Shown piece by piece: positions 13,226 to 23,255 of a stretch of 43,149 nucleotides of DNA. The stretch comes from Candidatus Hydrogenedentes bacterium ADurb.Bin170 (GTDB lineage: Bacteria > Hydrogenedentota > Hydrogenedentia > Hydrogenedentales > CAITNO01). The stretch covers positions 1 through 43,149 of the forward strand of contig MWCY01000024.1 in assembly GCA_002070275.1 (NCBI GenBank), written 5' to 3'. Below the pieces are notes generated by a model. The model searched no databases. It was not told the DNA's origin and worked only from the letters and a program-made list of their open reading frames with translations. Every line of letters begins with the position of its first letter. The first letter of the stretch is position 1. Position numbers and translations under genes: made by a program.

Positions 13226-16200
13226 TCAGGGAAGCAGCAACTGCATATTCATGTATTCAGGGATATCCCACCGGGCGCTTAAACTGCTGCTCGCAGTCTG
13301 AATAACAACTGTCAGCGGCTCGCCCTCATAGACAACATTGAGCGTATTGCGCTTTGAATCCGTCAAAGCATTGTTGTTCGTTACATTTAACAGCACTTCC
13401 GAGGTGAAGGTGCTGATGGTGGAATTAAGCAGGAAACTCAAGGTCTCATAGGGATCCTGCGAGGTGCCGAAAACCAGGCCAGGCACGGGGTACCTCATCT
13501 GATCCAGCGTCATATCAAAACGCGTGATACCCGGTGCTGCCGGTACATAAGCAGAACGATACTCATTGCGCCCGTCAGAAAATACCAGCGCCGTACCGCG
13601 GGAAAGACCGGTGCGCGCTGTCGCAACGGCTTCCCTCAAGTTAAGGGAATCATAGAGTGCTTCACGCAGCAGCGGCATACCCGTAGACAAGTCGGCATCG
13701 CTGGTAAGATTGGGGATATCAACACCTGAAATGCCGCCCAGATTAATGCCTGTACGCCCGAAGGTCAGCCCTGCATAGGTAAACACTGTATGCGGAATGC
13801 CCTGATCCGGAATGTACATGACAGCACACTGGTAAGGCGCTATCTTCAATCCCATAGACTCATTCACCGTGGCGCTGTGCATCGAATGAATCCTCGGCGC
13901 CTGGTCTTTAATCAGATTGCCGTATGCCGCCGTCGAATAAATACCGGAAGCGCTGGACGCATGGATTATGGCGGCATGTGCCATATTGAGCATGTCTTTG
14001 GTCACGGTCACTTTACGCGCCCGTGCTATGCCGCGTATCTCTTCCTGCAGTCGGTTATCCAGAACATTTCCTTCAAGCTCTTCCCAGATATCCAGCAGCA
14101 CTTCCTGAGAAAGTCCGGATGCCGCGATGATTGCAGGAACAGCATCGTTGATCTGATCGCCAAGCACTTCTCCGTAATAGCGCCCCATTTCATAAGGCGT
14201 GCCATACACCACAGCGACAGGAAGTTTAGTTTCGCTGAAGGGTACTGCATCGGGCCGCTCGGTATTGGCGAGATACCCTGTAAATTCAGGATAAACAATT
14301 TCGCCGTTCACAATAGGAAGCGTCCGGACACCGGTTGTGAACACCAGATTGGGAACAGGAATACCCGGAATTGCCAGCGTGCTTGTGTTCGCATATTCCA
14401 GCTGAATAAAGAAGGCGGTGTAATGCCCGGCCTTAGGTGCGGGCGGCAGTGCACGATACACTGTGCTGCCGGAAGTTGGCGACAGCGTGGTATAAGTCCA
14501 CTCAACGCCCTGTTCTTTCATGACTTCATTCCTGAAGTCCCTCTTATCAGAGGTTGCCTGACACAGACGCACCCGGACAGGCAGCCGTTGAGGAGATACC
14601 CGGACGACAATAGCCCCGTCCTGCTCGAAACTTTCGGTAAATCCCGGAAGTGCTTCTCTTTGGGTCACACTGAGATACCAGGCGAAAAATTTACCCAGGG
14701 GATTTTCGGGATCAGAAATGTCCACCCCGTCGATGCCGCCAAGATCATGACCTGCATTCGGAATGTAGCAAAGATGTTTATCCCCTTTAAGGTCATTGAA
14801 ATAGAACTGTGTCGAGTCAGGAACAAAGAACTGATCGCCGGTGCCGTTCATCATAAATTTCGGCATCGGATAGCTGCCTTTAAGCGCATACTCATAGGGA
14901 TCAATCCGGTTCAGAAGCGACTGCGCCTCTTTCGAAATCGTTCCGTCTTGCTCATTGGGAAGCAGCTGATCAAACACACCTTCCTGCGCATAGGGATAAA
15001 TGGCAGGTGCCCAGTAGCCATACGACTTGCGGTGGTGTGCCAGATGCTCATCCATATTCAGCACGTTAATCACAATGGGGGCGATCGCTTTAATACGGGA
15101 GTCGGCAGCACCGGTCAGCCAGGTTGTCCAGCCCCGTTTTGATGCGCCGGCAACGACAAAACCGTCCAGTGTAATGCCATTTTTGGCGAGGACATCTTCA
15201 GCCGTATCCATGCCCTTCACCGCTGATTTAACCATGGGGAAAAGAGCGGGCCACTGGAAATTCGGCTTACCCTCTGTTTCCCGATATGCCTTCAAATACT
15301 CATCGTAAGAGTAGGCGATAATATCGTCCTCGGTACGGCGGCGCAGGATGATATCTTCTCCGCTGTAATTATCCTGCCGCCCGGCGGGGATCACTTCATC
15401 CAGAAAAACAATGGGCTGGCAGGGGATATTGCGAATATGAACGATGGTGGTACCGGACAGCACAGACATCCGCGCAAAAGCAGGCTCCACTTTCGCCGGA
15501 GAGGTGCGACTGCCGCCATCAATGAACAACATGGCTGTTTTCGTCAGTTTAACAGCAGGCTCGAAAATGGTCATGGGATGGAACCATTCAACATAATCCG
15601 GATGGACACTGTTATCGGGGTTCCACCGCTGGGAGGTCATTTTATCAATGAGATAGACGGTACCTGCTGTCCTTCCGTCAACCCGGAGCGGCTCTACCCG
15701 CGGCGTGGAATATGTATAGGCGCCATCATTAAGGGCAACATAGTGTTCGAGATCAAGGAGGCCGTTGTCCTCTTCGTCCTCGCCCTCGCCTGTGTCTATT
15801 GTATCAACTATGGAAATATACCCTTCCCGGGTGAATGTGTCGGTCAATCCATCCGGATCGCCGCCCGTCACAGTAAGCGTGACAGTATACAGTCCTTTTT
15901 TCGTATAGACATGGGTCGGATGCTGCACCGTGCTGGTGTTACCGTCGCCGAAATCCCACGCCCACGCCACATTGCCGTCATGACCGGGAACAGACCGATC
16001 TGTGAAGCGGATTGGAGCATCCACTTTCTGCTTGGTGGGCGCAGCGGTAAAATTTGCCTTGGGAGCACGGTAAGTGAGCGTTAGCGTCTTTTCCTTTGAG
16101 CTGTATCCCTTTTCTGTCTGCACGCTCAGCGTTACTTTAAACTCGCCCTTGCCGTTGTACCGGTGCACAGGAGATGCTTCATTGCTGATCGTACCATCGC

Positions 16201-17257
16201 CGAAATTCCAGCTGCGGTCGGTAATGGTGCCTGTCCCCGGGTGGGAACGATCATAAAAACGAATCTCCTCTTTTACGTAGAGTGCCCCTGCATCGGATTC
16301 AAAACTGAAATCCGCAACCGGACCGCTGCCGGAACGGACGATCACAAAGTTTTCTTTAACCGATTCAAGCAAACCATGGCTGGTTTTCAGCTGCAGCGTT
16401 ACCGTAAAGACGCCTGTTTTCGCATAGCGATGAACGGCTGTTTTTTCTTTGGAAAAATTAGTTTCCGTGCCATCGCCAAAGATCCATTTCCGGCCTGTGA
16501 CTGTAATGTTGTCCAGCGAAGAACGGTCTGTAAAAATAACTTCTTCCCCAAGACCCGGCGCCTTGGTGGAGACATCAAAATCAACATGTGCCGCCGGGTT
16601 TTCAACACGGATCAATGCCGACTGCAATACCGTGCGTTTTATGTTTTCACTGGTCTGGATGGTCAGACGAACATCATAAACGCCCGGCCGTTCGTAAACA
16701 TGCACCGGATTGATTGCCGTTGACTCGTTGCCGTCTCCAAACTCCCATTTCCAGGAAACAAGCCTTCCGGCTTTCTCGGACACCTGACTTGCGTCGATGA
16801 ACTCAACCGCTTTTCCCAGCGCCACCTGGCTCTGCCGGACATAAAAATCAGCCTGGGCAATCTCTTCCGCAACCACCTCCACTGTCTTGGGGGACGCCGG
16901 ATTTGCGTGAAGACGAAGGGTGCCCGTATTCAAACCCATCGCAAGCTTATCCCGATCAATACGCACCCTGATCTGCAGATCGTGATAAGGCCCCTGACTG
17001 ATGCAGCCGTCTTTGAAATCCAGACAATTCTGCGGAATAATCCAGGGCTGATCGGCAGAAACTTCCAAAGGCTCCGTACGGGTGCCTGTGTGGTTCACAT
17101 GCACAGCCAGTCCGTCTTCCGTGCGGTCATGTCCGAAATCAAGCGTATCTTTGGAAAGCACCAGTTCCACGCCCACTTGCGGCGGACAGCCGGGCAGTAT
17201 CAACGCCATAAGGAACAAACCGGCGATCATGCCGGCAACTGTACGCCTGTTCTTCAT
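13226..17257 (-). CDS. Giant lipoprotein: four PKD domains + PhoPQ-activated pathogenicity-related domain + C45/Ntn-hydrolase-like domain
   Basis: 1343 residues from the ATG at 17257, which has AAGGAGT 8 bases upstream. The N-terminus ends in LILPGC, a lipobox-like site (Cys24). Residues 134-470 hold four PKD repeats, each with WxFGDG followed by a HxY strand (WEFGDGNES, WIFGDGTE, WNFGDGTI, WDFGDGNT). An acidic linker (DTGEGEDEEDNG) leads to a PhoPQ-related alpha/beta-hydrolase-type domain (about 500-930) with LEHYVALNDGAYTY, the nucleophile elbow GASKRGW near residue 703, and GTGDQFFVPDS and NAGHDLGG late in the fold. Residues 1010-1300 resemble the C45 acyltransferase/phospholipase-B-like Ntn group (YGTPYEMGRYYGE, FTYAGLTFGRTGINLGGISG), but the usual nucleophile Cys is not seen at SGIYSTAAYG. 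Probably a surface hydrolase on peptide or amide substrates. It has its own promoter and terminator. Confidence 0.85.
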   Translation of the reverse strand: MKNRRTVAGMIAGLFLMALILPGCPPQVGVELVLSKDTLDFGHDRTEDGLAVHVNHTGTRTEPLEVSADQPWIIPQNCLDFKDGCISQGPYHDLQIRVRIDRDKLAMGLNTGTLRLHANPASPKTVEVVAEEIAQADFYVRQSQVALGKAVEFIDASQVSEKAGRLVSWKWEFGDGNESTAINPVHVYERPGVYDVRLTIQTSENIKRTVLQSALIRVENPAAHVDFDVSTKAPGLGEEVIFTDRSSLDNITVTGRKWIFGDGTETNFSKEKTAVHRYAKTGVFTVTLQLKTSHGLLESVKENFVIVRSGSGPVADFSFESDAGALYVKEEIRFYDRSHPGTGTITDRSWNFGDGTISNEASPVHRYNGKGEFKVTLSVQTEKGYSSKEKTLTLTYRAPKANFTAAPTKQKVDAPIRFTDRSVPGHDGNVAWAWDFGDGNTSTVQHPTHVYTKKGLYTVTLTVTGGDPDGLTDTFTREGYISIVDTIDTGEGEDEEDNGLLDLEHYVALNDGAYTYSTPRVEPLRVDGRTAGTVYLIDKMTSQRWNPDNSVHPDYVEWFHPMTIFEPAVKLTKTAMLFIDGGSRTSPAKVEPAFARMSVLSGTTIVHIRNIPCQPIVFLDEVIPAGRQDNYSGEDIILRRRTEDDIIAYSYDEYLKAYRETEGKPNFQWPALFPMVKSAVKGMDTAEDVLAKNGITLDGFVVAGASKRGWTTWLTGAADSRIKAIAPIVINVLNMDEHLAHHRKSYGYWAPAIYPYAQEGVFDQLLPNEQDGTISKEAQSLLNRIDPYEYALKGSYPMPKFMMNGTGDQFFVPDSTQFYFNDLKGDKHLCYIPNAGHDLGGIDGVDISDPENPLGKFFAWYLSVTQREALPGFTESFEQDGAIVVRVSPQRLPVRVRLCQATSDKRDFRNEVMKEQGVEWTYTTLSPTSGSTVYRALPPAPKAGHYTAFFIQLEYANTSTLAIPGIPVPNLVFTTGVRTLPIVNGEIVYPEFTGYLANTERPDAVPFSETKLPVAVVYGTPYEMGRYYGEVLGDQINDAVPAIIAASGLSQEVLLDIWEELEGNVLDNRLQEEIRGIARARKVTVTKDMLNMAHAAIIHASSASGIYSTAAYGNLIKDQAPRIHSMHSATVNESMGLKIAPYQCAVMYIPDQGIPHTVFTYAGLTFGRTGINLGGISGVDIPNLTSDADLSTGMPLLREALYDSLNLREAVATARTGLSRGTALVFSDGRNEYRSAYVPAAPGITRFDMTLDQMRYPVPGLVFGTSQDPYETLSFLLNSTISTFTSEVLLNVTNNNALTDSKRNTLNVVYEGEPLTVVIQTASSSLSARWDIPEYMNMQLLLP

Positions 17258-17337
17258 AAAATGCACTCCTTGCGTCTTCCGACGAAGCATTTAAAAGATA
17301 ATCCCCGGGCGGATTAAAAACAAAATTCACAGCTATT

Positions 17338-18062: not shown

Positions 18063-19541
18063 CTAGTTGTGCAACAGTTTCAATTTTTCCTGGTATTGTT
18101 GGATGCGGGCCTCAAAAAAAGTCAGCAATTTATCGTGGAGCGCCTTATTTGCGGCAGCAATCAAAGAGCGGTGATTACCCTCTGTCGTATCCGTCAGCAG
18201 AAGATCATCAAAAGACTGACCATAGGCATCTGTAACGATGCAGCCGGACTCCTGGGCGATCAGCAGCGCCGCTGCCATATCGTAAGGCGCGATGCCGATT
18301 ACTTTTCCTTTGCCTGCAAAATGAAAGACCTTCCGCAATTCCTCAGGCATATCGCGATAGTATCGGTTGGCAAAATCTACACAGGCATCCATTTGATTGG
18401 TGAGAAGACGGGTCAGGCTGAAGGAGGTGCTGTTGCAGCTGAAAAACCCGCCTTTCAAACTGGAAAGATCGATGAGCCGCGCCGCTGTCGGAAAAATCAG
18501 TTCTGCCGGTCGGGCGGGAACAGTCATGGACCAGGTGAGCGCCTCAAGATCGGTATTTGCGGAAAGTTTCGGACGTTTCAGACTGCCATTCACATAATAC
18601 TTGGCACCTTTACCCCGCTCAGCGACAAAGTAGCGGTCTGCTGTGAGTTCCATAACACAGGCACACTCAATATCGCCAATGGTCGGCCTTTCCAGCACCC
18701 GGGTGGAGGCGAGGGCAACGACGCATCCTTCAAAGCCATTTTTTGCCGCTCTGGTGCCGTCGATGGGATCGACAATAAGCAGGTGTTTAGGGGGTTTACT
18801 TGTAATGGTGGAATACCCGACGTCTTCCGAATAAAGGGACAGTGGCAGATTGGCTGACTGCAGGTAGGCATTCAGTGCTTTTTCCGCCACTCTGTCAATT
18901 TGAAAAGTTACATCGCCGCTTGGCGCATCACTGACAATTTCCCTGCCTTTCAGGGATTGAATCATCGGCAGCACCGCATTCTTAATCGCCTGTGCAACGC
19001 TGACCAAAAACTGGGTGTTCACTGTGGTGAATCGGGCTTTATCCGAAGTGACGGGGGCTTCGCTAACTTCGACGGCCTCGGCAGAAGTCGTTTTACCCGC
19101 TGCTTTAGGCGGTGTTTTCTTTGCGGCGGGGCTGCTCTTCGCGACTGCCTTGTCCGGAGCTGCGTCCTCTTTTGGTGTTTGCGCTGCAGCGACAGCAGGC
19201 GTTTTTGTTCGGGGCGCTTTCTTCTCAGGCGCAGGCTTTACCGCTGCCGCCGGCTTTTTTGCAGTTGCAGGCTTGTCGGCTGCTTTAACAGCAGAAGGTT
19301 TCGCTTGAATTACCTTCTTTACTTTTTTTTCTGCATCTGCCTTTTTTCCGGGCGTTTCCGCACCTGCTTTGGGCACTTTTGCCGCTTTCTTTTCAGGATG
19401 AGATTTTACCGCTGTTGCCTTCTTTTTTACGGGGGCTTCTTTCGCTCCGGAAGAAGCCTTTGCTGAAGTTTTTTTCTCGTCTTTTCGGGCGGTTTTTTCT
19501 TTAGGAACAGCCACTTGCTTTTCTTTTCTTCCTGAAGCCAT
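18063..19541 (-). CDS. Inositol-monophosphatase-like protein with a histone-H1-like Lys/Ala/Pro tail
   Basis: 492 residues from ATG 19541 (AAGGA upstream). The first 165 residues are low-complexity Lys/Ala/Pro repeats (KKTSAKASSGAKEAP, AVKPAPEKKAPRTKTPAVA) very like histone H1 or bacterial H1-like proteins, becoming more acidic near the end. From about 175 to 490 an IMPase/FIG-type phosphatase follows: YSEDVGYST, the metal-binding LIVDPIDGTRAAKNGF near 250-265, and GIAPYDMAAALLIAQESG near 415-430, matching the family's three motifs, although the WD of the last motif is YD. Such enzymes dephosphorylate inositol phosphate, 3'-phosphoadenosine-5'-phosphate or fructose-1,6-bisphosphate. The tail predicts DNA, RNA or polyphosphate binding; it is cytoplasmic, as no signal peptide is seen. 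Confidence 0.85.
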   Translation of the reverse strand: MASGRKEKQVAVPKEKTARKDEKKTSAKASSGAKEAPVKKKATAVKSHPEKKAAKVPKAGAETPGKKADAEKKVKKVIQAKPSAVKAADKPATAKKPAAAVKPAPEKKAPRTKTPAVAAAQTPKEDAAPDKAVAKSSPAAKKTPPKAAGKTTSAEAVEVSEAPVTSDKARFTTVNTQFLVSVAQAIKNAVLPMIQSLKGREIVSDAPSGDVTFQIDRVAEKALNAYLQSANLPLSLYSEDVGYSTITSKPPKHLLIVDPIDGTRAAKNGFEGCVVALASTRVLERPTIGDIECACVMELTADRYFVAERGKGAKYYVNGSLKRPKLSANTDLEALTWSMTVPARPAELIFPTAARLIDLSSLKGGFFSCNSTSFSLTRLLTNQMDACVDFANRYYRDMPEELRKVFHFAGKGKVIGIAPYDMAAALLIAQESGCIVTDAYGQSFDDLLLTDTTEGNHRSLIAAANKALHDKLLTFFEARIQQYQEKLKLLHN

Positions 19542-19667
19542 AGAGGTTCCTTGCGTTGCTCGCAAACCTGAGAGCACGATGCGTTTTTACAGACCCCAGC
19601 ATTCTATCGCATAGATCCCATCCGGTTTTTATGCCTGCCTTCCCGGCTATAGGGTGCCTGTTCTGAT

Positions 19668-22600
19668 TTATCCACGCCGTCTGAAAAGGGCCAGTGCCAG
19701 CATGCTGACACCCAGCAGCAAATATTCACCCAGAAAGTTTTTGGGAATTTTCCGGGCACCGCAGCATCCTGTGCGCCCGAAGCAGCCTACGCAATCATCA
19801 TCTTCTTCGCCTTCAACAGGGGACTCGCCTTCAATTTCACCTTCGACAACTTCAGGCGTCTCGCCTTCGGCATTCGCCTTCTCTTTTTCAACAGTGACCG
19901 TACGGACAGCCGTTGCCGTGTTGCCGGAAGCATCCGAAGCTCCATAGGTTATTGTGTAAACACCTATCTTTCCGGTGTCTACCTGACCATCTACGCGGAG
20001 ATCGACCTGCCCGCTGCAGGAGTCATAGACCCTGGCACCACGCTCAAAATAGACACTGCCTTGCGTCAGCTTCAACGCTGACTCGCCATTAAGTTGAATA
20101 ACGGGCGCTGTTGTATCCCGGACAATCACGGTACGCTGCCCGACCAGCAGTTCCGTACCGGCAGGAGTCGTGGCATAATAATTAACCCGCACCGTACCCG
20201 TAGTCTCACCGATGACTCCGAAGTAATCCACACTGCGGGAGTAGACGTTCAGCTTCTTCTCTTTGTAGCGGACTTCAACGCCGGGATCCGTAAAGTGCGA
20301 TCCGCATTCCAATGCAATTTCCGCTTCGCCCAGCATCACGATTTCAACATCATCGGCAGTCAAATCAACAATATTCACTGTGCGAGTCACTGAAGCAGTG
20401 TTGCCCGATTTATCTTCGGCGGAATAGGTAATCGTGTAGCTGCCCGGCTTTGAAGTATCTATTGCTTTTGGCAGAGGCTCCTGCTTGATACTGTCGAGAA
20501 CACCTTCGCATTCATCCACGGCGCTGCAGCCCAACTCCACATATTTTGTACCGCAAAGCAGTGTCACCACGGCGTCACCTTTAAGCGTCATCACAGGAGG
20601 ATCGGTGTCCTGAATCCGGAAACGCATCAGGTACGGTGCATCAGGATCAATAAGAAATCCTTTTTCATTCAGAATATCGGCGAAGACTTTCTCGTTAAGC
20701 AAAGGCTGCGTCTGACGATCCAAATAGGAAACCAGAACCGCCACATAATCGCCAAGACGCCCTTTCAGCTGTTCCGGCACATATTCCGAAGGCTCTCCGG
20801 TTCGTTCCCGTTTGATACTGCCGTCATTCTGGAATTTCCAGACAAAACGGTCAACCCGGTCGGCAAAACAGTTATTGATCACACTGTTGTTCAGAAGAGT
20901 ATTTATATCTTCCGTACAGCTAACGAGATAAAATCCGTCTTCGTCATCCATCGGCAGATCCGGAACAAGACGCGTTGCCGCTTGCGTGCGAACTATGCGC
21001 ACAGATTCTTCAAAGCGCTTGGAAAGGACACCGGGACTGGCAAACACATTAACGCCGCCGTTGGAATGAAACACATTCGGCAAGCCGTCGGATGCAAGGG
21101 GTAAATTGGTATTGCCTTCAGCATCCGTGACAACATAGACAATGATATAAGAGCCCGGGTCTTTTTTGAAGAGGTCATTAGCGCCGTAGTCGACCGGTCT
21201 GCCCTTCTTATCACGAACCACGTCAGGCACCGCATCCGTCGCCAGATCACCCAACAGACGCCAGACGTATTTCTGCAGTTTCAGATCAGTCGCCGGACTG
21301 CAGCCATCGGTAAGCGTATATGCATCCTGTGTTGTCGTATCAAAGCACGGAATAAACCACTCGTTGTTCTGCAATGTTCCGAAAGTGTCCAGTATTACTC
21401 CAGGTTCCTGATTGTCTACCACTTCTACTTGCACTGTCAAAGCAAGCCCTCTTGCCGGATCGTCAGGAAAACTTCTGTACGTTACCGAGTAAATACCGAC
21501 TTCCGGATTTTCCAGATCCAGTCCCCCTGTATCCGTGACATAAGCAGGTACATTCAGGACATTACAGCCCAGAAGATCAAATTTTCCCTGGGAAAGGGTA
21601 ATCGACCTGCCACACTGAAACTTATTGGCTTCTAAATAGACCTGCGACGGTATCCAGGAGCTGCCGCCGCTTTCTTTGAAAGAAAGAATCGGCGGCACAT
21701 AAACAATTATGGCGGGGCGTTCTTTGTATGCCCGATTGTTACGGGGATCCCTTGCCTCATACCAGATACGTTCATAGACGGTATGCGCTTCGGCAATGCC
21801 GCTGGCAGCGAGCTTAAGCAGCTGTTTGGAAATCTCACCGGAACCGTACGCCTGCGTCTGCGATGAAATCACATAACCGTCATCGCATCCGTCTGTCGCA
21901 TAGAAACCTTCATCGGGACGCAAAGGCCACCAGCGCTGTAATCCGTATTCATCCACAATGACAGCACCTTCCGCCGATGGGTCAAGCTTGATGTACTCAC
22001 ACCAGTTAAGTGTCACCGCCGAATCTTCCGGGCTGCTCACCGGTGCTTGATTCTTGTCAAGAAGCGTGATGACCGGCATGGCATCATTCACCTGAATCGT
22101 CCGCTTTGCGATGTGATTGCCTGCTTTGTAGACAAGGTGGTAGGTGCCAGGCACGTTCCAGTTTACTACGCCACTTTTGCTGATCTTGTAAGACGCATCC
22201 CCTTCACAGGAGTCATAATAACGATCCAATTTCTCCAATTGTAAAATTGTGGGCCATATGGAATCGTCGCCGCAGTTCACGGAAAAATTAGGGTCGCCCG
22301 CCAGCGTCAGCCATCCGCCATACCGGGGGAGTACATCACGAACGGCAACTCCGATATTTCTGGAAGTGTCGGGAGCATAGTAATAGAGGCGATATCCTGC
22401 CAGATTGCGTTTGCTTCCCGGAGACTTGAGTTGATTAGGATTTAAGTCCGTATATTTCCCGTTCCAGAGCTCCTCCTCCCAGACATAATTATCCTCAATA
22501 TACACTTCCACCATGAAAACATATACTTCATCCAGCGGCACAGCAATATCGCAGGCATCAAAGACTTTCACCCCCGGGTCTTCCCAGGTTTTGCCGCTGC

Positions 22601-23255
22601 ACCGCCACTCCATCGGGTTGGCGCCCCAATCAGGAATTTCGTAAACTACACCTCTCCCTATAGGGAAGAAATACCAGACCATTGCCATTCTCTGCGCCCA
22701 TTCGGGCCAATTTGCAATGTCTGCCAGAGTAAGTTCAAACTCATCCGGTTTCGGATGTTCCTCTTCTCCCTCCTGATCGTCAAAAGGTCCGAACTGCTGT
22801 TTCAGCCAGATAAGCCATAGCGGCGGAACAGGCTTCTTATCCGGATCGAAGGAGACAGGGATCAGCCGGAGCGGCACTTCACCCGTCACATTGTCCAAAT
22901 CTTTTTCGAGGGCAAAAATCGGGGGTATTGTGTCCACAATTATGACGCGCCGGCTTGCTGTTGCCGATGCGCCCGTACTATCCACCACCCTATAAACAAT
23001 GTCGTACTCGGCATTGAGAATCGATGTGTCCAGGTTGTAAAGCCCATCAACAACTATATCGCGGGTTATATCCACTCCGTTACTATCTGTTGCAATCGCT
23101 CCCTGATCATCGTACGCAACACTGCATTCCCAGTAATGGGGATTGGGACCATTAATCTTAATTGTCGGCTTTGCCAGTGCGGGAAGGCTGCAGCATACTG
23201 TAAGCAGGACAAGAGAAAAAAGACCGCTCTTCCACCCGAACGCTTTCGCTGTCAT
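19668..23255 (-). CDS. Very large exported surface protein with HYR/DUF5011-like domains and a C-terminal anchoring tag
   Basis: 1195 residues. Signal peptide (GLFSLVLLTVCCSLPALA). The body is beta-rich: repeated Ig-like units of the DUF5011/HYR type, recognisable as PPVMTLKGDAVVTL...GSYTITYSAEDKSGNTASV near 890-965 and APVIQLNGESALKL...GVYTITYGASDASGNTATA near 1040-1125; similar but more diverged units occur from residue 30. A Glu/Gly-rich linker (VEGEIEGESPVEGEEDDD) is followed by CVGCFGRTGCCG, a hydrophobic span (LLLGVSMLALALF) and RRRG. This three-part end looks like a sorting signal. Likely an adhesin or surface-layer component. GGA lies about 10 bases before the ATG. Confidence 0.8.
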   Translation of the reverse strand: MTAKAFGWKSGLFSLVLLTVCCSLPALAKPTIKINGPNPHYWECSVAYDDQGAIATDSNGVDITRDIVVDGLYNLDTSILNAEYDIVYRVVDSTGASATASRRVIIVDTIPPIFALEKDLDNVTGEVPLRLIPVSFDPDKKPVPPLWLIWLKQQFGPFDDQEGEEEHPKPDEFELTLADIANWPEWAQRMAMVWYFFPIGRGVVYEIPDWGANPMEWRCSGKTWEDPGVKVFDACDIAVPLDEVYVFMVEVYIEDNYVWEEELWNGKYTDLNPNQLKSPGSKRNLAGYRLYYYAPDTSRNIGVAVRDVLPRYGGWLTLAGDPNFSVNCGDDSIWPTILQLEKLDRYYDSCEGDASYKISKSGVVNWNVPGTYHLVYKAGNHIAKRTIQVNDAMPVITLLDKNQAPVSSPEDSAVTLNWCEYIKLDPSAEGAVIVDEYGLQRWWPLRPDEGFYATDGCDDGYVISSQTQAYGSGEISKQLLKLAASGIAEAHTVYERIWYEARDPRNNRAYKERPAIIVYVPPILSFKESGGSSWIPSQVYLEANKFQCGRSITLSQGKFDLLGCNVLNVPAYVTDTGGLDLENPEVGIYSVTYRSFPDDPARGLALTVQVEVVDNQEPGVILDTFGTLQNNEWFIPCFDTTTQDAYTLTDGCSPATDLKLQKYVWRLLGDLATDAVPDVVRDKKGRPVDYGANDLFKKDPGSYIIVYVVTDAEGNTNLPLASDGLPNVFHSNGGVNVFASPGVLSKRFEESVRIVRTQAATRLVPDLPMDDEDGFYLVSCTEDINTLLNNSVINNCFADRVDRFVWKFQNDGSIKRERTGEPSEYVPEQLKGRLGDYVAVLVSYLDRQTQPLLNEKVFADILNEKGFLIDPDAPYLMRFRIQDTDPPVMTLKGDAVVTLLCGTKYVELGCSAVDECEGVLDSIKQEPLPKAIDTSKPGSYTITYSAEDKSGNTASVTRTVNIVDLTADDVEIVMLGEAEIALECGSHFTDPGVEVRYKEKKLNVYSRSVDYFGVIGETTGTVRVNYYATTPAGTELLVGQRTVIVRDTTAPVIQLNGESALKLTQGSVYFERGARVYDSCSGQVDLRVDGQVDTGKIGVYTITYGASDASGNTATAVRTVTVEKEKANAEGETPEVVEGEIEGESPVEGEEDDDCVGCFGRTGCCGARKIPKNFLGEYLLLGVSMLALALFRRRG

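Follow-up and report, generated by a model that had tools for sequence, protein, structure and literature searches.

The gene at 18063-19541 on the minus strand of the window (the whole stretch of 43,149 nucleotides that was analysed, from a Candidatus Hydrogenedentota MAG) encodes an IMPase-fold phosphatase with a histone-H1-like tail at its N-terminus. We lean towards the reading that it is a Mg2+-dependent enzyme held on the nucleoid by this disordered lysine-rich tail, in the manner of H1 and HMGA tails. The basis for this reading is at the level of sequence: the fusion itself, its conservation across the phylum, a tail that is predicted to be disordered and is selected for lysine and charge, an intact active site, and AT-hooks in the tails of one family, f7. 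The parts are known, and no published description of their combination was found; our literature search returned no paper on the tailed phosphatase or on H1-like proteins in Hydrogenedentota.

The gene runs from an ATG at 19541 to a stop at 18063 and has 492 codons. Its features are listed here with what supports each.

18063..19541, minus strand: whole gene of the tailed IMPase-fold phosphatase, 492 aa (open reading frame; phylum-wide ortholog)
19548..19552, minus strand: Shine-Dalgarno-like AAGGA just 5ʹ of the ATG at 19541 (similar sequence in most orthologs)
19035..19541, minus strand: H1-like, predicted disordered, Lys/Ala/Pro-rich N-terminal tail, residues 1-169, net charge +25 (composition, AlphaFold2; kind kept in 55/55 orthologs)
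18066..19016, minus strand: IMPase-fold catalytic domain, residues 176-492 (PF00459, AlphaFold2, Foldseek)
18825..18827, minus strand: metal ligand E239, in YSED (invariant in 55/55)
18756..18770, minus strand: DPIDG metal-binding motif, D258-G262, followed by T263 and R264 (R264 invariant in 55/55)
18279..18281, minus strand: metal ligand D421, in APYD (invariant in 55/55)

The preliminary description had placed a Lys/Ala/Pro-rich, H1-like tail at 19045-19541, fused to the N-terminus of an enzyme of IMPase fold whose metal motifs are intact. Such a tail is present and reaches 19035, about 3 residues further than described, and the order of tail and enzyme was the same in all 55 full-length orthologs. 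The tail also looks translated. From the tail start to the domain, the window gene has no further ATG. Among the orthologs, the tail ATG nearly always comes with a Shine-Dalgarno-like sequence, and the boundary of the domain seldom has an ATG. At four loci (L017, L026, L065, L083) the true start is probably the ATG after the one that our rule picked, which leaves the result unchanged. If the start were mis-called, translation would begin at the domain and the tail reading frame would be left unexpressed. The Shine-Dalgarno-like sequence before the tail ATG in most orthologs, the usual lack of an ATG at the boundary and the constraint on the tail codons described below all argue against a mis-called start, and we regard its probability as practically negligible.

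The window tail consists of 24% K, 25% A, 11% P, 14% S/T and 2% R. In the AlphaFold2 model, which was built from 32 orthologs, it had a pLDDT of about 55 and no helix, strand or other secondary structure. It thus has the features of an H1-like tail of the AlgP, HupB or Hc1 kind: great length, predicted disorder, a high content of Lys, Ala and Pro, and a net positive charge. The tails of loci L001 and L007 gave no Pfam family up to E = 10, hence no curated H1, Hc1 or linker-histone match. A protein search with the tail alone returned only the tail itself, which is expected because low-complexity sequence changes fast.

A whole-genome search found the catalytic-domain ortholog in 61 of 68 Hydrogenedentota genomes, and in all 38 genomes of the phylum with a completeness of 90% or more and a contamination of 5% or less. 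Ortholog loci were retrieved for nearly all genomes with the domain, 55 of them full-length, and every one of the 55 had a basic N-terminal tail (48-240 aa, net charge +9 to +66). None of these Hydrogenedentota orthologs, checked for a start directly at the IMPase domain, had one there. Outside the phylum, where the search was one pattern-based scan, the nearest homolog found was in an Actinomycetota MAG (L040), with 33% identity and no basic tail. It starts at a GTG two codons before the domain, preceded by GGAGG. Homologs with tails may occur elsewhere than in Hydrogenedentota. In L040 (11-5939), the tail-less homolog is near genes for a CDP-alcohol phosphatidyltransferase, a lipid acyltransferase and a glycosyltransferase, and it could be a candidate inositol-phosphate or phosphatidylinositol-phosphate phosphatase.

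For the eight close pairs that allowed its computation, dN/dS was 0.13-0.43 for the tail and 0.03-0.09 for the domain; the tail is under purifying selection. The median of K/(K+R) was 0.85 in the tail versus 0.42 in the domain, and it was higher in the tail than in the domain in 55/55 orthologs. In the domain this ratio dropped with GC3 (rho -0.49, p 1.6e-4), while in the tail it showed no trend (rho -0.03, p 0.83); both statistics ignore shared ancestry. Since the ratio stays flat in the tail while it falls in the domain, lysine is kept in the tail against GC drift.

The tail was also specific to this gene. We scanned the 466 called genes in 547 kb around the orthologs for strict KAP segments, defined as stretches of 60 aa that hold 12 or more K and, in total, 46 or more residues from the set K, A, P, S, T, V and R. 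The scan gave 31 hits, and all 31 were the tailed phosphatase (31 of 39 anchors); the 427 neighbouring genes had none. We therefore rejected the idea that KAP tails are a general habit of the phylum, as far as the genes in these flanks of about 547 kb are concerned. None of the IMPase-family paralogs inspected, two in the window genome and others in relatives, had such a tail. These results bear on whether the tail arose by non-adaptive expansion of low-complexity sequence, or serves as a general aid to solubility without a specific partner. Its divergence is fast, with tail identity of 25-40% where the domains are 81-86% identical and lengths from 48 to 240 aa, and repeats have expanded in some tails (L023, L026), as such an origin would predict. 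A tail of this origin is hard to reconcile with its retention in 55/55 orthologs with a charge that is always net positive, with lysine held against GC and dN/dS below 0.45, with its absence from paralogs and neighbours, or with the AT-hooks of f7 described next. We consider a non-adaptive origin improbable.

The family f7 (L078-L081) is the only AT-rich one, with a GC of 31-38% in the fetched sequence versus 47-67% at all other loci, and its tails carry RGRP AT-hooks: two each in L078-L080 and one in L081. An example of an f7 tail reads ...IKKRGRPKKGD...MKRKRGRPPMEK... The Pfam AT_hook model (PF02178, curated score 17.4) was run on three f7 tails and scored above the curated value in two, L078 (20.5 bits) and L081 (18.1 bits); L079 reached 12.1 bits, below this value, yet it has two RGRP cores. 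Two RGRP cores occurred in none of 20,000 shuffles of f7 tails. In the tail of the window protein itself there is neither an AT-hook nor a match to Pfam.

The four f7 genomes were also scanned for a codon pattern of Lys-Arg-Gly-Arg-Pro followed by a basic-type codon. There were two sites per genome, and one was the tailed phosphatase each time. The remaining four sites were in frames of at most 47 codons, so the only open reading frame of real size was that of the tailed phosphatase. The raw count was no higher than that of a reversed-pattern control; it is the repeated match in the same gene, not the raw count, that carries weight. The AT-hook state of f7 belongs to one clade and is probably one event. 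The tree gives no order of AT-hook and KAP tails, as the root within the phylum is unresolved and the sole outgroup has a very long branch. Outside f7, the tail of L076 has a variant core, PGRPRK. As a separate observation, the primary sigma factor RpoD in the genome of L076 (G005; L104/L110/L135, G005:C49) has a basic N-terminal extension with two KRKRGRPRKQ AT-hooks, and the other RpoD genes fetched, including that of the window genome, have no AT-hooks.

The interchange of tail types has a counterpart in Myxococcus CarD, in which an HMGA-type AT-hook tail and an H1 tail are functionally interchangeable. CarD resembles the tailed phosphatase in joining a structured domain that does not bind DNA to a disordered basic tail of the AT-hook or H1 type, with tail types that can be swapped. 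It differs in being a transcription factor with a C-terminal tail and an acidic stretch, instead of a phosphatase-fold enzyme with an N-terminal tail, and the interchange seen here is between natural relatives. On one enzyme, the natural interchange of H1-like and AT-hook tails is best explained if both kinds serve to keep the enzyme attached to nucleic acid; the interchangeability reported for CarD points together with the f7 AT-hooks to the same tethering. The tail would thus act as H1 or HMGA-type tails do in DNA-binding proteins of bacteria. It would bind DNA rather than RNA, polyphosphate or membrane, and would hold the phosphatase on nucleic acid, most likely the nucleoid, where the enzyme would be catalytically active with Mg2+.

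Lysine-rich disordered tails of the H1-like kind can bind RNA and polyphosphate as well as DNA. If the tail bound polyphosphate, the enzyme would sit on polyphosphate granules as AlgP of Pseudomonas does. AlgP is an H1-like protein with KPAA repeats that localises to these granules, and its repeats bind DNA and position the granules (PMC9239181). Some tails of the phosphatase are near-perfect AAKKP repeats (L015). AlgP itself binds DNA, however, and without polyP kinases its interaction with the nucleoid appears to be a global one, and we know of no reason why the AT-hooks of f7 would serve polyphosphate. The probability of a polyphosphate-bound enzyme is low in our judgement. Pseudomonas AlgP and PhaF remain useful for comparison with the tailed phosphatase. 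Like it, they have a long Lys/Ala/Pro tail; their KPAA peptides bind DNA, and a tethering role has been proposed for them. Unlike the phosphatase, they have the tail at the C-terminus and combine it with granule-associated helical regions, not with an enzyme. HupB of Mycobacterium and HupS of Streptomyces also have related tails (PMC5676037, PMC11229371), lysine-rich ones on bacterial nucleoid proteins, and differ in that the body is an HU domain, which itself binds DNA.

The catalytic domain matched PF00459 (Inositol_P) over residues 180-476 with 66.5 bits against a cut-off of 27. AlphaFold2 predicted the domain fold from residue 176 to about 491, with pLDDT of 80-96 in most blocks. The metal ligands E239, D258, D261 and D421 were invariant in 55/55 orthologs; residue 263 was T or S, and the arginine following DGT/DGS was invariant. 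Foldseek placed SuhB and the FBPase/IMPase AF2372 together at the top (E about 1e-17). It did not settle the substrate, as SuhB, FBPase/IMPase, IMPA and HisN scored alike. The best curated model for the window protein was FBPase/IMPase of class IV type (NF009321/PRK12676), with 102 bits against a cut-off of 264, and PRK12676 was matched by all 37 members scanned. The SuhB/IMPase, HisN, NADP-phosphatase and CysQ/HAL2 models were all weaker; the SuhB/IMPase equivalog NF008027 gave 33 bits against 332. The window genome has two further PF00459 genes, one HAL2-like (238 bits, cut-off 267) and one HisN/IMPase-like, which also matched the FBPase/IMPase model with 108 bits. By these profile scores, the catalytic domain represents a third, divergent paralog that comes closest to the archaeal-type FBPase/IMPase but stays far below the family cut-offs. 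The archaeal enzymes (AF2372, PH1897) share its fold, metal site and best curated model and are among the top PDB matches. They differ in having no tail, with about 252 residues in the solved enzymes, and show about 20% identity in the structure alignment.

SuhB, which is both an IMPase and a Nus factor, suggests another possible partner for the tail. The tail might tether the enzyme to RNA or to the machinery of transcription or ribosome assembly, and the enzyme would then moonlight as a transcription or ribosome-biogenesis factor. Besides the shared fold and the top Foldseek rank, the general ability of lysine-rich disordered tails to bind RNA speaks for this. SuhB is an IMPase acting with RNA and RNA polymerase, as it binds RNA directly and joins rRNA transcription complexes (PMC6614801, PMC4807359). 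SuhB has no tail, however, the match to NF008027 is weak, the RGRP AT-hooks of f7 favour AT-rich DNA, and no conserved family of nus, rRNA or ribosomal neighbours was found among the loci. We hold tethering to RNA to be unlikely, though less so than a polyphosphate partner.

For the substrate, a small sugar-type phosphate seems the best fit, with fructose-1,6-bisphosphate or inositol phosphate leading, ahead of 3ʹ-phosphoadenosine-phosphate (PAP). The preliminary description had imagined a phosphatase tethered to the nucleoid, RNA or polyphosphate and acting on PAP or a nucleic-acid-linked substrate. The tethering to nucleic acid gains independent support from the f7 AT-hooks. PAP is an unlikely substrate, since the HAL2 model gave only 18 bits against a cut-off of 267 and CysQ did not match; PAP is probably handled elsewhere, because a distinct HAL2-like paralog without a tail is encoded in the same genome. 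A nucleic-acid-linked substrate found no support.

In 17 Hydrogenedentota genomes, FBPases of class I (above cut-off), II, III and V were not found, and the control genomes were positive. The class I hits below the threshold, in four genomes, were the tailed phosphatase itself and nothing else. That these classes were not found in the 17 genomes makes fructose-1,6-bisphosphate an attractive substrate. PFK genes with the signature GGND...PKTIDND, which we take to mark the PPi-type PFK, were present and widespread in the same genomes. A PPi-type PFK could run gluconeogenesis in reverse, so an FBPase may not be strictly needed. Inositol-phosphate synthase (MIPS) was likewise not found in the 17 genomes, with positive control genomes, and the inositol pathway was set aside for this reason.

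Gene neighbourhoods were compared for a conserved operon, which was rejected: the neighbours differ between families, nothing is fixed and no pathway is indicated. SurE is divergently upstream of the tailed phosphatase in several families. In five f5 loci (L014, L059, L061, L068, L093) a G6PDH-like gene is directly downstream on the same strand, which gives a weak hint to sugar phosphates. Two large proteins are encoded near the gene in the window. One of 1354 aa (13226-17290) has four PKD domains, a PhoPQ-activated pathogenicity-related domain (PF10142) and a C-terminal region of about 430 aa with no Pfam match, and close relatives have a counterpart two genes downstream. The other is a surface protein of 1195 aa (19668-23255) with Ig-like domains (PF16403), an EGE-rich stretch and a cysteine motif, and its C-terminal hydrophobic segment, ending in RRRG, resembles a sorting signal.

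The neighbours also bear on whether the polybasic tail binds anionic membrane lipids, which would make the phosphatase one related to lipid head groups. The lipid genes near the tail-less L040 homolog resemble a phosphatidylinositol-mannoside cluster and would fit this. No such conserved neighbours were found in Hydrogenedentota, however, MIPS was not found, and the tail is poor in hydrophobic and aromatic residues and has no amphipathic or lipid-anchor sign. The AT-hooks of f7 also argue against a lipid partner, to which we give very little credence.

We return to a phosphatase held on the nucleoid. A more specific form of this reading, which we put forward as speculative and doubtful, is that across the phylum the enzyme belongs to central metabolism, possibly as the FBPase of Hydrogenedentota, and that its stable nucleoid tether changed between H1-like and HMGA-like tails as the base composition of the genome shifted, so that a pool of metabolites would be linked to the chromosome.

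In bacteria, tails of the H1-like and AT-hook types have been described on transcription factors, HU proteins and organisers of granules, and here one is on a phosphatase of metabolic type. The natural exchange of an H1-like tail for one with AT-hooks, with the enzyme staying the same, is the comparative counterpart of the CarD domain swap, and the ortholog set with both tail types is ready-made material for testing tail function. A lysine-selected tail in every good genome of the phylum suggests that Hydrogenedentota keep this enzyme on the chromosome (or on RNA or polyphosphate) for a reason.
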